Source of the DNA: Micrococcales bacterium 31B
GTDB lineage: Bacteria > Actinomycetota > Actinomycetes > Actinomycetales > Dermabacteraceae
Assembly: GCA_022803075.1 (NCBI GenBank)
Contig: JAFFTF010000001.1
Span: forward strand, 551,573-615,572
Reading direction: 5' to 3'
Length of the DNA: 64,000 nucleotides
This document shows, piece after piece, positions 38,749 to 51,633 of this stretch (position 1 is its first letter; every line of letters begins with the position of its first letter). The notes below the pieces were generated by a model. The model was not told where the DNA came from. It made no database searches and worked only from the letters and a program-made list of their open reading frames with translations. Both the position numbers and the translations under genes were made by a program.

Positions 38749-38809
38749 AGTTTTTACCAAAACTTGAACCTTTGATGACTTTCGATGGTATTTGTGGCAC
38801 TCTTTACGC

Positions 38810-41800
38810 ATGGCTAGTAAAGAAACCCTCACAGAGTCCCCTGTTTACTGCTTGGGTTACGAGGCCGGCTACGCGCTGGCGCTGAACGCCTCGACCCAGG
38901 CACTACCCCCGCTCGAGACCATCGGTCTTGGCGTACAAACGGCAGTCATCACGTTCCCAGCGACCTTCAACCAACGCTGGGCACACGAGTACCAGGCTGG
39001 CCACAGCGTCGGTCAGTTCGACGGCTACCGGCAAGGTCGCGAAGCAGTGCCAGCGCCCACGGCCGCGCCGCGGCAGCCGTGGGCGGCCCCCGCGCCGTCC
39101 GTCCCACCGGCACAGTCGTCGCCCGCCCCGTTCGTGGCTCCCGTCGCGTCGCCCGCCCCGTTCGTGGCTCCCGTCGCGTCGCCGGCCCCGTTCGTGGTTC
39201 CCGTCGCGTCGCCCGCCCCGTTCGTGGCTCCCGTCGCGTCGCCGGCCCCGTTCGTGGCTCCCGTCGCGTCGCCCGCCCCGTTCGTGGCTCCCGTCGCGTC
39301 GCCCGCCCCGTACGCGTCCCCGGCCCCGTACGCAACCGCGGCCCCGTCGCTGCCGCAGTCAAGCCGCACCGCGCCGCCGTCGCCCCCCGTCGCCTCCCGG
39401 CCGGGTGCCGACAAGCCGAGGGGCAACCTGGGCCTCAACCTGCTGCTGTTTGTCGGCGCGGGGCTCGTGATCGCGGCGGCCGCCGTGATGATCGCGGTGA
39501 TGGGCAGCGACGTCTCCAAGTTCATCGGAATCCTGGCGCTCGCGGGCGGAACCTACGCGCTCGGCCTCGCACTCTACAACCGGGTGCGGACGTTGCGCCC
39601 CGCGGCCGTGGCCTTCCTCGGAATCGGCCTCGCGTCGATTCCCCTGGCTGGAGTCGCGTTTACCTACTATCTCGACGTTCCCGCCACCACATCGTGGCTG
39701 GTCGCCTCCCTCGTGGGCGTCGTCGCCTTCGCGGTCGCGACCCTCATCACGCGCAGCGAGTTCGTCGCCTATTTCGCCATCTTGTCTCTCGCCTCGGCGA
39801 TTACGTCGCCGGCCGCGGGCTTCGCTACGCATCTGGCGTGGCAGATCGCTGCCCTCATAGTGCTCTCCACGGGGCTCACCGTGCTCAATGCCACCCTGGG
39901 AACGACATTGCCGCCCTACTTGCGTCGGCCCGCGCGGATCAGCGGGGCGGCCCTCGGCTGGCTGATGTTAGGCGTGATGCTGTTCGTACAGCCGCAAATC
40001 ACGACCGCGCAGATGTGCACCTTGTTGCTGGTCTCCGCCCTCAATTTCGCGGTCACGGCACGCATCGTTGGTGCGCCACTGACCGTGGTGCGGTCGGGTT
40101 ACGGTGCTTCATCGCGAATCCTCGCGGCCCTAGCCGTGCTGTTTCTGGCCGAAGACGCCGGCGCCTCCAGCGTCGTGCTCATCGCTCTAGCAGTGGCCCT
40201 GTGCGCGGCCAACCTGGTGGCCTCGGTGGAGGTTTTGCGCCGTGGCAAGGCACGCGTCGGGGGGCTGCGCACCATTTTCGACACGCTGCATGAAGACACG
40301 CCCCTGCCGGAGATTGGCCAACCCGCGCCGATCATGCTGGAGAAGCGGTCTCCCGCAGCCACCGCTCGACTGCAGGTGCAGGGCGCTCTCGTGCTCGAAT
40401 TCTGCATGCTACTGGCCGGGCTCTGTGGCCTGGTGGGCGTCTACATCTTGGCGAGCATCTCGGCCCTAGGCCAGGCGGGCGGGGCCTTCACGCTGGAGGC
40501 CGCGATGCCGTATCTCCCCGTTGCCTGCCTGCTCGTCGCGAGTTACTACCTCGTGGTACGCCTCTCCGCACCCGGCTGGATGGTCGTGGGCGCCGCAGCC
40601 TGCATAGCCCTCGGCGATGCCGTCAACCACAGCGTCGGCGCGGCCCAATACGGCGGACTCTTGGTGTGTACGCTGGCGGTTTTGGGTGCGCTGGCGAGCG
40701 TAGCGGTCATGGAACGCCTTGCCGACAGCAGCGCGATTCGCGTGAGCGGAGCCGTGGCGCTTGGTCTACTGGCCGTTGCGGCTCCCGTGCTCGGCCTCGA
40801 CGCCGATCGCCTCGCCGTGTGCGTCATGCTCGTGCTGCTCGCGGGATCGCTGGCCATCGCCCAGTATTCGTTGCGGGTCTGGTGGGGGTTGATTCCGGCC
40901 GTGCTGCTGCTAACGCTCGCCGTGTATCAGGCGTTCGCGCTTCGCTTCGACGAGGGCTACGCCCAGTACCTCTCGACCGCCGTGACGGGTGCCGCCGTGG
41001 TGGTTACCCAGCAACTCGTGTGCCTGCGACCCGCGAACGGCGCTCCCTCGGCGTCCAGTAATCGACTGCGCGTTACAACCATGCTCGTGTCTGGTGTGGT
41101 GCTGGGCATGATGTCGGTCGCGTTCGTGCCGAGCCTGGTGCTCCTGAACAGTGATTGGGCGGTCACTCCGGGCGTCCTGGTGCTCACTCTGCTGCCGCTG
41201 GCCGCTCCGACCCTTGGGCTGGCCGCGCAATCCCTGCGGCCCCGCCTCGTGCCCACCCTCGGCCTCACGCGGCGCGGCATGTGGCTCGGTGCGACGATCC
41301 TGCCGGCGGCGGGCGTCCTGTGGGCGGCAATTCTCGAGACGGGCGCCACGGAGGTGCTCGCGGGCGTCTCTGCGCTCGCGCTGGCCGCGGGCCTGCACGC
41401 GCTCAGCACGAGTCGTCTCGGTTCGTACTGGCAGCGGCTGGACGCCTCGGTGGGCATTATCAGCGAACCTAACTCGGGCAGCCTGCCGTCGGAGCGCCCC
41501 CTGTGGCCCGTCACGATCGCGCTGGTGATGCTGCTTTGTGTCGGCGGTGGCGCGGCCACGGTGCTCGGCAATGGTGGCATGAGCGTGTTCTTGGCAGAGA
41601 TGCTGGTCGTGCTCCTGGCCTCGGTGTCGTGGCGCTACCCCGCTGGCCGCGTGATCGCCGTGGTCGGCATCGTGGGCGCCATCATCTACCTGTCCCGATC
41701 CAGCGCCTGGGCCATGATGATGATCGCGGGCTTCGCGATCATCGCCGTGGTGATCTTGCTGCTGCTGCGCGCCGGGCGGGCCTCCCGGGTTGCTCCGGAG

Positions 41801-41845
41801 CCGGTGTCGCCGCATGACCTCGGCGCCGCGGGAACGCGCCTCTAA
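38810..41845 (+). CDS. Large polytopic membrane protein with Pro/Ala repeats (SCO7613/DUF2157-like)
   Basis: 1011 aa. An N-terminal soluble part (about 1-75) is followed by a Pro/Ala-rich stalk (about 80-205) with six near-identical 10-residue units PAPFVAPVAS, then at least 20 hydrophobic segments to the C-terminus. The first membrane pair (LLLFVGAGLVIAAAAVMIAV, then ILALAGGTYALGLAL) resembles large actinobacterial membrane proteins of the SCO7613 C-terminal/DUF2157 type, whose role is unknown. The ATG at 38810 has no Shine-Dalgarno; the upstream DNA is AT-rich and the message may be nearly leaderless. It interrupts hisH and priA. Confidence 0.82.
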   Translation: MASKETLTESPVYCLGYEAGYALALNASTQALPPLETIGLGVQTAVITFPATFNQRWAHEYQAGHSVGQFDGYRQGREAVPAPTAAPRQPWAAPAPSVPPAQSSPAPFVAPVASPAPFVAPVASPAPFVVPVASPAPFVAPVASPAPFVAPVASPAPFVAPVASPAPYASPAPYATAAPSLPQSSRTAPPSPPVASRPGADKPRGNLGLNLLLFVGAGLVIAAAAVMIAVMGSDVSKFIGILALAGGTYALGLALYNRVRTLRPAAVAFLGIGLASIPLAGVAFTYYLDVPATTSWLVASLVGVVAFAVATLITRSEFVAYFAILSLASAITSPAAGFATHLAWQIAALIVLSTGLTVLNATLGTTLPPYLRRPARISGAALGWLMLGVMLFVQPQITTAQMCTLLLVSALNFAVTARIVGAPLTVVRSGYGASSRILAALAVLFLAEDAGASSVVLIALAVALCAANLVASVEVLRRGKARVGGLRTIFDTLHEDTPLPEIGQPAPIMLEKRSPAATARLQVQGALVLEFCMLLAGLCGLVGVYILASISALGQAGGAFTLEAAMPYLPVACLLVASYYLVVRLSAPGWMVVGAAACIALGDAVNHSVGAAQYGGLLVCTLAVLGALASVAVMERLADSSAIRVSGAVALGLLAVAAPVLGLDADRLAVCVMLVLLAGSLAIAQYSLRVWWGLIPAVLLLTLAVYQAFALRFDEGYAQYLSTAVTGAAVVVTQQLVCLRPANGAPSASSNRLRVTTMLVSGVVLGMMSVAFVPSLVLLNSDWAVTPGVLVLTLLPLAAPTLGLAAQSLRPRLVPTLGLTRRGMWLGATILPAAGVLWAAILETGATEVLAGVSALALAAGLHALSTSRLGSYWQRLDASVGIISEPNSGSLPSERPLWPVTIALVMLLCVGGGAATVLGNGGMSVFLAEMLVVLLASVSWRYPAGRVIAVVGIVGAIIYLSRSSAWAMMMIAGFAIIAVVILLLLRAGRASRVAPEPVSPHDLGAAGTRL
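39121..39300 (+). repeat. Six tandem 30-bp repeats within the large membrane protein gene
   Basis: Six units of exactly 30 bases begin at 39121, 39151, 39181, 39211, 39241 and 39271. They differ at only two positions, a C/G at base 4 and a C/T at base 18 that gives V for A in unit 3. Each encodes one 10-residue unit of the stalk. Near identity at silent positions points to recent expansion. Confidence 0.95.
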
Positions 41846-42726: not shown

Positions 42727-43502
42727 GCGACTACTCGCATCTGCCCAGGGCCGATTCGGCGGGCATCAGCTTTAGCGGCCGCACCCTCGGCGCGACACCT
42801 TTCGCGGGCGACACGGGGGAGACCCCCGCCGGCCTGCGTGCGGCGCTGCAAGCGCTCGGAGGCGAGCCTGCCGACCCGGCCGCCAGGGCGTCCGGACTGA
42901 CCGATCTCGTGGCGGCGCTCGCCGGCACGCGCGTGTTCGTGCCCGTGGTGGCGGTGCTGGGCGAGACGGCCGCGGGTGCGAGGGGCGTGACCAGCGACAA
43001 GAATGCCGACATGGCGCTCGTGACGGTGGCGGCGCCGGACGGCCGCACCGCGTTGCCGATCTTCACGTCGGTTGCCGACCTGGCCGCGTGGAACGCGTCT
43101 GCCCGACCGATTCCGGTCGAAGCGGAGCGCGCCGCGCTCTCGGCGGTCTCCGAGCGCTGCGATGTCATGGTGGTGAACCCCGGCAGCGATGCCGCGGTGA
43201 TTTCGCGCACCGCCATGTGGGCCCTCGCGCGGGGGCTCGGCTGGGTGCCGTCGTTTACCAACCCCGCGGTGCTGGACGCCATCGTGGCCGCGTTGGCACC
43301 CGAACCCGCGGTGCTCTCTCATGCGTGTGGGCCGGGCCGCTCGGGTGCGCTGCGCCTGACCCTGACGCTCGTGGACGGGCTGAACTCGACGCAGGTCAAC
43401 GACCTGGTGGGCCGAGTGCAGTCGCGGTTGTCGGAGGCTCAGGCGGTGGCTGACGGGGTCGATGGGCTCGAAGTGACGTTGCGCAGCGGGGGCACCCGCT
43501 AG
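42723..43502 (+). CDS. SseB family protein
   Basis: 259 aa. The SseB N-terminal domain spans about residues 60-190: [38 protein letters not shown] split around residue 100, and [15 protein letters not shown]. SseB proteins are conserved next to priA in Actinobacteria; the biochemical role is unknown. The ATG overlaps the priA stop (ATGA), so the two are co-translated. Its 3' end overlaps the convergent cation transporter gene by 4 bases. Confidence 0.88.
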
Positions 43503-44452
43503 CGTTCCGCTGCCACGTGTTCCGCCCCGCCGATGCACGCGCCGGGCGTGGGCCCGCACAGGGAGCGAGGCTCCAGTTGAAAGGTCGCGTGGGCGATGGG
43601 CACTTCGAAGTGGGTCGCGACGCACTGCTTCAGGTCGGCGAGCTGCTGCCGGGCATGGCCGTCGTCGAAGCACTCGTCGTCGACGACGATGTGCGCCGTG
43701 AGCACGGGCAATCCCGTGGCGATTAGCGACGCGTGCAGGTCGTGCACCGACCGCACGTGGGGCACCTCGAGCAGGTGACCGCGCACGGCGTCGAGGTCGA
43801 GCCCGGCCGGTGTGCTCTCGAGCAGCACGTCCACGGTCTCGCGAATGAGTCGCACTGCGCGGGGCACAATCAGGGCGCCGATGAGGAGCGCGGCGATGGA
43901 GTCAGCGGCCGCGTAACCCGTGAGGGCAATGACGATGGCCGCTACGATGACCGCCACCGAGCCGAGGGCATCATTGACGACCTCGAGAAACGCGGCGCGC
44001 AGGTTCAGGGAGTGCCCGCGCCGCGAGGCCAGGATGGCAATGGCGATGAGGTTACATACCAGGCCCAGGATGCCGAACCAGAGCATTTCGCTCGCGGCGA
44101 CGGTAGAGGGGTGAAGTAGCCGGTTCACGCTTTCGGCGACGACGAAGAGACCCACCGCGCACAGGAGTATGGCCTGCAGGAGGGCTGAGATGACCTCCGC
44201 GCGGCGCAGCCCCCAGGTGCGGCGATTGGTGGGCGGCCGACTCGAAAGGTATGCCGCGCAAAGGGCCATGGCGAGCCCGGCGACGTCGGTGAGCATGTGT
44301 GCGGCATCGATGAGGAGCGCGAGGGAGCGGGTGAGGGCGGCGCCCACGAGTTCGGCGACCAGCACGATGCTGGTGAGGATCAGCGCCGCGCGCAGCCGCG
44401 CAGAGCCGTGGTCGAGGTTGTGGCTGTGGCCGTGTGCGTGCTGATGGCTCAT
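43499..44452 (-). CDS. Cation diffusion facilitator (CzcD-like Zn/Cd/Co efflux)
   Basis: 317 aa. His-rich start (MSHQHAHGHSHNLDHG) then six membrane segments and a C-terminal cytoplasmic domain ending Cys/Gly-rich. The TM2 metal motif is H52-M-L-T-D56. In TM5 the usual HxxxD reads E157-V-V-N-D161, so one His is replaced by Glu, as in part of the actinobacterial branch; metal preference is therefore uncertain. I chose the ATG at 44452 (GGAAG upstream); an ATG at 44482 adds 10 residues inside the neighbouring palindrome. Probably proton-coupled metal export. Confidence 0.9.
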   Translation of the reverse strand: MSHQHAHGHSHNLDHGSARLRAALILTSIVLVAELVGAALTRSLALLIDAAHMLTDVAGLAMALCAAYLSSRPPTNRRTWGLRRAEVISALLQAILLCAVGLFVVAESVNRLLHPSTVAASEMLWFGILGLVCNLIAIAILASRRGHSLNLRAAFLEVVNDALGSVAVIVAAIVIALTGYAAADSIAALLIGALIVPRAVRLIRETVDVLLESTPAGLDLDAVRGHLLEVPHVRSVHDLHASLIATGLPVLTAHIVVDDECFDDGHARQQLADLKQCVATHFEVPIAHATFQLEPRSLCGPTPGACIGGAEHVAAER

Positions 44453-44475
44453 GCGGGGGGCTTCCAAATCGACAT

Positions 44476-44509
44476 GACTCATAAATACATGCGAATGTAT
44501 TTATGAGTC
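44476..44509. promoter_or_regulatory. Perfect 15-bp-arm palindromic operator between CDF and NmrA genes
   Basis: GACTCATAAATACAT (44476-44490), GCGA, ATGTATTTATGAGTC (44495-44509): arms are exact inverted repeats. On the minus strand TTGACT and TATTTA flank the centre about 18 bases apart, so the palindrome would cover the promoter of the cation transporter. ArsR/SmtB-type metal sensors use similar AT-rich dyads, and so do HxlR and TetR regulators. Confidence 0.7.
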
Positions 44510-44586
44510 AACTGTGGAATGACTCTCGGTGGCAATTCGTTACGCCTACGTACGTCATCTCACCTCTTCGAGAGAATGGACCACTC

Positions 44587-45435
44587 ATGACCATTGCCAT
44601 TACGGGAGCCAGCGGCAACATCGGCGGCACGACCGCGCGACTGCTGGCCGAGCGCGGGCTCACCGACCTTCGGCTCGTGGTTCGCAACGCCGCGCGTGCG
44701 CCCCAGATCGACGGCGCTACAGTCGCCCAGGCAACGTACCTCGATGAGGCGCCCCTGCGTGACGCCTTCGCGGGCGTAGACACGCTGCTGCTGGTCTCGG
44801 CCGGCGAGAGCGAAAACCGCGTGGCAGAGCACGTGAACGCCGTCACCCAGGCCGTCGCGGCGGGCGTGCAGCACATCGTCTACACGTCGTTCGTAGGCGC
44901 GTCGCCCACCTCCACATTTCTGCTTGGCCGCGACCACCATGCCACCGAACAGGCCATCATCGCGAGCGGCGTGAACTACACGTTCCTGCGCGACAACTTC
45001 TACATCGACGTCTTCCCGCACTTCGCTAACGAGCAGGGAGTCATCGCCGGGCCCGGCGGGCAGGGCCGGTCCGCCGCCGTCGCGCGCGCCGACGTGTCGG
45101 CCGTGGCGGCGGTCGTCCTCGCCAACCCTTCGGCCCACGCGGGCGCCACGTACAACCTCACGGGCGCCCAAGCGCTCACGCTCGACGAGATTGCGGCGGC
45201 CATCACTGCCGCCAGCGGCCGGGAGACCACGTATCACGAGGAGACCCTCGACGAGGCCTACGCCTCGAGGGCGGTCTACGGAGCCGAAGCGTGGCAAGTC
45301 GACGCGTGGGTGAGCACCTACACCGCCATTGCCGCAGGAGAACTCGCCGCCGTCAGCACCGACGTCCGCACCCTTCTCGGCCGTGAACCGATCGGATTCG
45401 CCGAAGCCCTGGGGAAATCCCAGCCCCGGGGGTAG
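44587..45435 (+). CDS. NmrA-like NAD(P)-binding oxidoreductase
   Basis: 282 aa. Atypical short-chain dehydrogenase: nucleotide motif ITGASGNIGGTTARLL (GxxGxxG), AAGVQHIVYTSFVGA and FLRDNFYIDVFP follow the NmrA/quinone-oxidoreductase (QorB-like) pattern. These enzymes reduce quinones or sense NADP. The start ATG at 44587 begins exactly at the Rossmann strand; the longer frame from 44503 is not supported. It diverges from the cation transporter across the large palindrome. Confidence 0.88.
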   Translation: MTIAITGASGNIGGTTARLLAERGLTDLRLVVRNAARAPQIDGATVAQATYLDEAPLRDAFAGVDTLLLVSAGESENRVAEHVNAVTQAVAAGVQHIVYTSFVGASPTSTFLLGRDHHATEQAIIASGVNYTFLRDNFYIDVFPHFANEQGVIAGPGGQGRSAAVARADVSAVAAVVLANPSAHAGATYNLTGAQALTLDEIAAAITAASGRETTYHEETLDEAYASRAVYGAEAWQVDAWVSTYTAIAAGELAAVSTDVRTLLGREPIGFAEALGKSQPRG

Positions 45436-51563: not shown

Positions 51564-51633
51564 ATCCGCCACCGCAGCGTCCAGCACGCGCGACCGGCAT
51601 CTGCGCCGGTCGCGCGCATGCTGCAATAGAGGC

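Follow-up and report, generated by a model that had tools for sequence, protein, structure and literature searches.

The window, by which we mean the whole stretch of 64,000 nucleotides analysed, carries a perfect palindrome between two divergently oriented genes, one encoding a cation diffusion facilitator (CDF; Pfam Cation_efflux, TIGR01297) and the other a protein of the NmrA family. The gene order around it is SseB-like, CDF, NmrA, MFS, and then an aroQ-like gene. With SseB-like and NmrA as neighbours, no regulator gene (arsR/smtB, in operon or divergent) lies adjacent to the palindrome, as a previous reading made from the sequence alone had already noted. The features of the locus are as follows.

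43499..44452, minus strand: CDF-family metal exporter, 317 aa, with a His-rich N-terminus.
44461..44465, minus strand: Shine-Dalgarno-like GGAAG, 8 nt before ATG 44452, read directly from the DNA.
44475..44510, no strand: perfect 36-bp palindrome, the proposed operator spanning the CDF promoter; single copy in the 3.93-Mb genome.
44484..44501, no strand: core AATACAT-N4-ATGTATT, with half-sites TACA/TGTA (TACA-N6-TGTA).
44482..44511, minus strand: possible CDF promoter, with a predicted -35 element TTGACT (44511-44506), an 18-bp spacer and a weak -10 element TATTTA (44487-44482).
44474..44503, plus strand: mirror promoter-like layout towards nmrA, predicted from symmetry only, with ATGACT (44474-44479), 18 bp and TATTTA (44498-44503).
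44587..45435, plus strand: NmrA/NAD(P)-binding oxidoreductase, 282 aa, divergent from the CDF gene.

The CDF protein scored 141.9 bits with PF01545 and 238 bits with TIGR01297, and its nearest equivalog model was ZitB (200 bits, under the cut-off of that model). The ORF finder set its start at 44482, within the palindrome; the ATG at 44452 appears the likelier start, because GGAAG lies 8 nt upstream and because the protein then begins with the His-rich MSHQHAHGH, as in its homologues, which likewise open with a short His-rich stretch at this position. For nmrA, the start at 44587 is likely. Elsewhere in the window, a large membrane-protein-like ORF (38792-41845) displays tandem PAPFVAPVAS repeats close to its N-terminus.

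The palindrome, TGACTCATAAATACAT-GCGA-ATGTATTTATGAGTCA, consists of two 16-bp arms with 100% complementarity and no mismatches, flanking the loop GCGA at 44491-44494. The sequence-only reading had rightly called it perfect and given it 34 bp with 15-bp arms, which is one base short on each side, and its description as AT-rich and unlike the surroundings agrees with a GC content of 31% within the palindrome versus 66% across the window. No other perfect hairpin in the window is as long, the runner-up having 12-bp arms. When the window was simulated 30 times with a first-order Markov model, the longest arm measured 9 to 12 bp, versus 16 at the palindrome, which is not a product of chance. A perfect GC-rich hairpin with 12-bp arms, CGCGCGACCGGC-ATCTGC-GCCGGTCGCGCG, occurs at 51587-51616 between two plus-strand ORFs. 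RNA folding of the palindrome region yielded a z-score of -5.5. An intrinsic terminator was considered and rejected, given the lack of a GC-rich stem with a following T run, and a search of Rfam returned three weak matches to the palindrome, all far below the cut-offs; two of these were miRNA families, a result to be expected of any perfect hairpin.

The centre of the dyad lies 40.5 nt upstream of the CDF start codon. An overlap with the CDF promoter had been claimed for it; the placement upstream of the CDF gene stands, while the promoter itself is a prediction, a consensus scan for sigma-70 promoters in the palindrome region having been negative. A MerR-type arrangement, in which the dyad is centred in a long spacer, was dropped, the dyad here being off-centre in an 18-bp spacer.

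Searches for further copies of the full palindrome were negative in 395 other genomes of the order (up to 3 mismatches), in a GTDB contig collection (exact match; the source genome was possibly left out of it), in 58 relatives and in viral contigs, and phage and plasmid sequences gave nothing significant. A single arm had no second copy within 2 mismatches in its own genome, where only 3-mismatch matches occurred. The 12-base core ATACAT-N4-ATGTAT was present in 4 of 394 other genomes of the class, and a 16-base core gave 57 matches in viral contigs; on inspection, the core matches in relatives had no CDF or NmrA context. Palindromes of similar strength were absent upstream of 29 NmrA and 29 CDF relatives, and a literature search with the motif strings returned nothing relevant, only plant and human genes. 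As for the gene pair, no CDF gene was found in 109 other NmrA loci (0/109; flanks of about 1.5-3 kb), whose upstream neighbours vary and, as judged from sequence, include an aldo/keto-reductase-like gene in Arthrobacter relatives and, within the window's own family, a gene of lipoprotein type. Within the limits of these data, the CDF-NmrA pair thus appears private to the window's lineage, and there is therefore no support for a conserved metal-redox unit; the proposal that the palindrome couples metal export to redox stress finds no backing either in these loci or in the palindrome, itself not conserved.

The only other promoter with a strong likeness to that of the window was found at a divergent arsR-CDF locus on a Leifsonia shinshuensis plasmid (NZ_CP043643), whose CDF is 58% identical to that of the window. 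In the CDF direction, the window reads TTGACTCATAAATACATTCGCATGTATTTATG and the Leifsonia CDF promoter TTAACTAATTTACATATTCGCATGTATTGACG; the two align without gaps from -35 to -10, share ATTCGCATGTATT in the same orientation, and have in common an 18-bp spacer, the Leifsonia layout being TTAACT-18-TATTGA. The ungapped match score of the window core against the Leifsonia CDF promoter was 16, while 400 shuffles gave at most 11; the 18 other ArsR promoters likewise stayed at or below 11 against the window core. The distance from dyad centre to start codon is also alike (40.5 nt in the window and 42.5 nt in Leifsonia). The two loci differ in that the Leifsonia dyad is shorter and imperfect (TACA-N8-TGTA), whereas that of the window is perfect (N6), and in the divergent partner, which in Leifsonia is an arsR gene of the NmtR/SmtB type, its product carrying DDHVVEFFDQALLHLGH in a DxHx10HxxH pattern, and in the window is nmrA. 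On this comparison, the simplest account would be that the window keeps a Leifsonia-like CDF promoter-operator, that the regulator gene has gone from its side, and that the dyad became, or stayed, fully symmetric.

Linkage of CDF genes to metalloregulator genes was frequent among the relatives: all 10 CDF relatives examined on plasmids had a metalloregulator ArsR gene next to them, and an ArsR-like protein was encoded within flanks of roughly 1.5 kb at 16 of the 29 chromosomal ones. Dyads were seen upstream of several of the CDF-linked arsR genes (e.g. GAATACAGGCACACGTGTATTC, CGGTACACGCGTGCGTGTACCG and CGGTACACCGATGCGTGTACCG). In 0.98 Mb of fetched loci, most of them picked for encoding CDF or ArsR proteins, TACA-N8-TGTA occurred 5 times, each time at an arsR or divergent arsR/CDF promoter. 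When spacers of 0 to 12 were allowed, 11 of 24 TACA/TGTA dyads fell within the 4.1 kb of arsR promoters (0.4% of the sequence; 0.1 expected), the remaining 13 being scattered over the other 979 kb. TACA was the most enriched among the 12 permutations of its letters, a control that covers composition only partly, intergenic DNA being more A+T-rich. The motif was chosen post hoc. The arsR-linked N8 set includes both CmtR-like and NmtR-like sensors. The half-sites of the palindrome match this set, but their spacing, N6 versus N8, does not, and since they stand 2 bp closer together the present regulator may differ. Lack of conservation, which the sequence-only reading had named as evidence against its proposal, was thus found for the exact 36-mer and not for the half-site and its position at CDF promoters.

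The same loci permit further observations. Across diverse actinobacteria, TACA-N8-TGTA marks promoters of arsR or arsR/CDF (L051, L052, L055, L063 and L279), and in several of these its right half-site extends into a -10-like TAnnnT. It offers a testable operator motif for arsR-linked CDF genes in actinobacteria. A second type of arsR-CDF operator, ATCGC...GCGAT beside TATGATCG, is found at L054, L075-L078, L278, L280 and L282, and accompanies ArsR proteins with LAQSTVSKHL.

The genome encodes three clear ArsR proteins. Directly after the gene of ArsR-1 (G000:C1:77305, locus L143) comes another CDF-like gene, its product His-rich at the N-terminus, so that this second CDF beside its own ArsR gene shows the ordinary arrangement that is missing at the CDF of the window. 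The gene of ArsR-3 (C23:305101) is flanked by genes reading as arsenic-resistance genes. ArsR-2 (G000:C27:102292-102639) is an orphan SmtB-like protein encoded beside an nrdF-like gene; among solved structures, its best relatives are NmtR, SmtB, CzrA and an ArsR protein (8qkf). The alpha-5 metal site of SmtB, CzrA and NmtR follows the pattern D-x-H-x10-H-x2-E/H, and the alpha-5 stretch of ArsR-2, DTHITHIIADAFEHSKE, fits D-x-H-x10-H-x2-E. The motif recurs in its orthologues within the family. Their genes are often followed by one for a small His-rich protein and once by one for a Fur-family protein, and by eye they appear to have a ATATTGCAATAT-like dyad operator upstream (L250 and L254-L263). 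Several of these SmtB-like ArsR genes precede one for a small protein with His-rich repeats (HGDHVDYVHDGHRHA) that belongs to no Pfam family. In the genome studied here, the ATATTGCAATAT-type operator gave 2 three-mismatch matches, equal to the control, with none at the CDF gene, and the orphan ArsR-2 gene itself has neither this operator nor the palindrome. No copy of the palindrome was found upstream of the three arsR genes. Pattern searches over the whole genome, in line with the earlier suggestion to look for the half-site near regulator genes, placed no copy of the palindrome near any of them, and autoregulation is therefore not seen. The genome holds no clear CmtR-like ArsR, NCBIfam CmtR scores being far under the cut-off. 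HxlR, one of the sensors suggested earlier, drops out, as no PF01638 protein is encoded in the genome, while 14 of 14 control genomes were positive.

Taking the TACA/TGTA enrichment and the Leifsonia match together, we lean towards reading the palindrome as a probable operator of ArsR/SmtB type that overlaps the CDF promoter, with the sensor acting in trans. In the absence of metal, an ArsR/SmtB dimer would sit on the dyad and block RNA polymerase; excess metal (most likely Zn, or else Cd, Co or Ni) would free the sensor from the dyad, and the pump would be made. Related actinobacteria have the sensor gene beside the CDF gene; here it is absent and nmrA occupies the divergent position, which would call for action in trans, the best candidate, still putative, being orphan ArsR-2. 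The nmrA gene may be co-repressed by the same sensor, given the symmetry of the site and its placement between divergent genes. Binding by a sensor, its response to metal, the identity of the regulator, its action in trans and any control of nmrA are what we infer for this site. The earlier suggestion of an ArsR/SmtB-type sensor is thus supported for an operator at the CDF gene and lacks support for the coupling to nmrA: control of nmrA by the palindrome is possible but unsupported, and redox coupling is without comparative support. In a stronger version, the 36-bp dyad would combine -35, -10 and ArsR/SmtB operator for either direction; exporter and NmrA would then be switched jointly by an unlinked metal sensor, and polymerase loading for the two genes would be mutually exclusive. 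This version seems to us unlikely. Read as a metalloregulator operator at a metal exporter, the object is of an ordinary class; its state is unusual, with perfect 36-bp symmetry, no linked regulator and a different divergent partner.

Several other explanations were weighed against this reading. The dyad might serve a dimeric regulator of some other family (TetR, MarR, GntR or similar), acting on nmrA, the CDF gene or both and answering to a non-metal inducer. Many regulator families typically use a long perfect dyad placed between divergent genes, and copies of the site pointed to no cognate regulator; yet both half-site and position fit arsR-linked CDF promoters, HxlR proteins are excluded, and the 29 NmrA relatives scanned had no similar dyad upstream, which leaves this a rather doubtful alternative. 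The mirrored arms also invite comparison with a symmetric bidirectional promoter, whose -35 and -10 elements would load polymerase either towards CDF or towards nmrA, with or without a repressor. TGACT in the outer arms and TATTTA in the inner arms, on both strands and at 18-bp spacing, would suit it, as does the precedent of pseudo-symmetrical bidirectional promoters documented in E. coli (PMC12825309). TATTTA, however, is without the conserved final T of a -10 element, the consensus promoter scan was negative, and a symmetry of 16/16 far exceeds what promoters need, so that we hold such a promoter improbable as the explanation.

The site could also be a relic, its regulator lost in the rearrangement that brought nmrA beside CDF and the dyad now being an unused cis element or an RNA hairpin. 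The missing arsR linkage, the non-conserved exact site, the private gene pair and the strong RNA hairpin all accord with this, but an unused 36-bp site would be expected to lose its perfect symmetry, terminator features are absent and the best Rfam matches are far under their cut-offs; a relic is in our view quite improbable. Lastly, an AT-rich perfect inverted repeat within a GC-rich genome, at a place where the local gene order is private, recalls a mobile element, either one of its ends or a footprint left by it (abutted terminal repeats, a MITE or an attachment site); nevertheless, neither arm recurs in the genome within 2 mismatches, no target duplication was seen on inspection and the phage and plasmid searches gave nothing significant, all of which renders a mobile origin most improbable.

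Should the reading as an ArsR/SmtB-type operator be true, the locus would present an exporter that keeps such an operator without a linked sensor, and thereby a test of how easily control is rewired to act in trans. If nmrA were co-regulated, metal and redox stress would be linked, although nothing found here requires that.

Among known systems, the operator of the ArsR protein Rv2034 in M. tuberculosis is built of 8-bp inverted repeats 4 nt apart, a spacer of the same length as that of the palindrome; its half-site, CCGTAAGT, is unrelated in sequence to the palindrome and its target is no metal exporter (PMC3338718). The zitB gene of Streptomyces coelicolor resembles the present proposal in that a CDF zinc exporter has a dimeric metalloregulator at its promoter, but there the regulator is the Fur-family activator Zur with a Zur box, unlike the ArsR-type repressor proposed here (PMC5472717); by inspection, the 36-mer is also unlike the Zur box given for mycobacteria in PMC7174638. 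KmtR of Mycobacterium tuberculosis, an ArsR-family protein sensing Ni and Co, represses a CDF exporter, as is proposed here (PMC7055735). The SmtB protein of Mycobacterium smegmatis binds zitA and represses it in trans, with no recognisable motif at zitA, so that, as in our proposal, an unlinked ArsR/SmtB zinc sensor controls a stand-alone CDF exporter; there, smtB shares an operon with zur, while the sensor proposed here is an orphan (PMC7174638).
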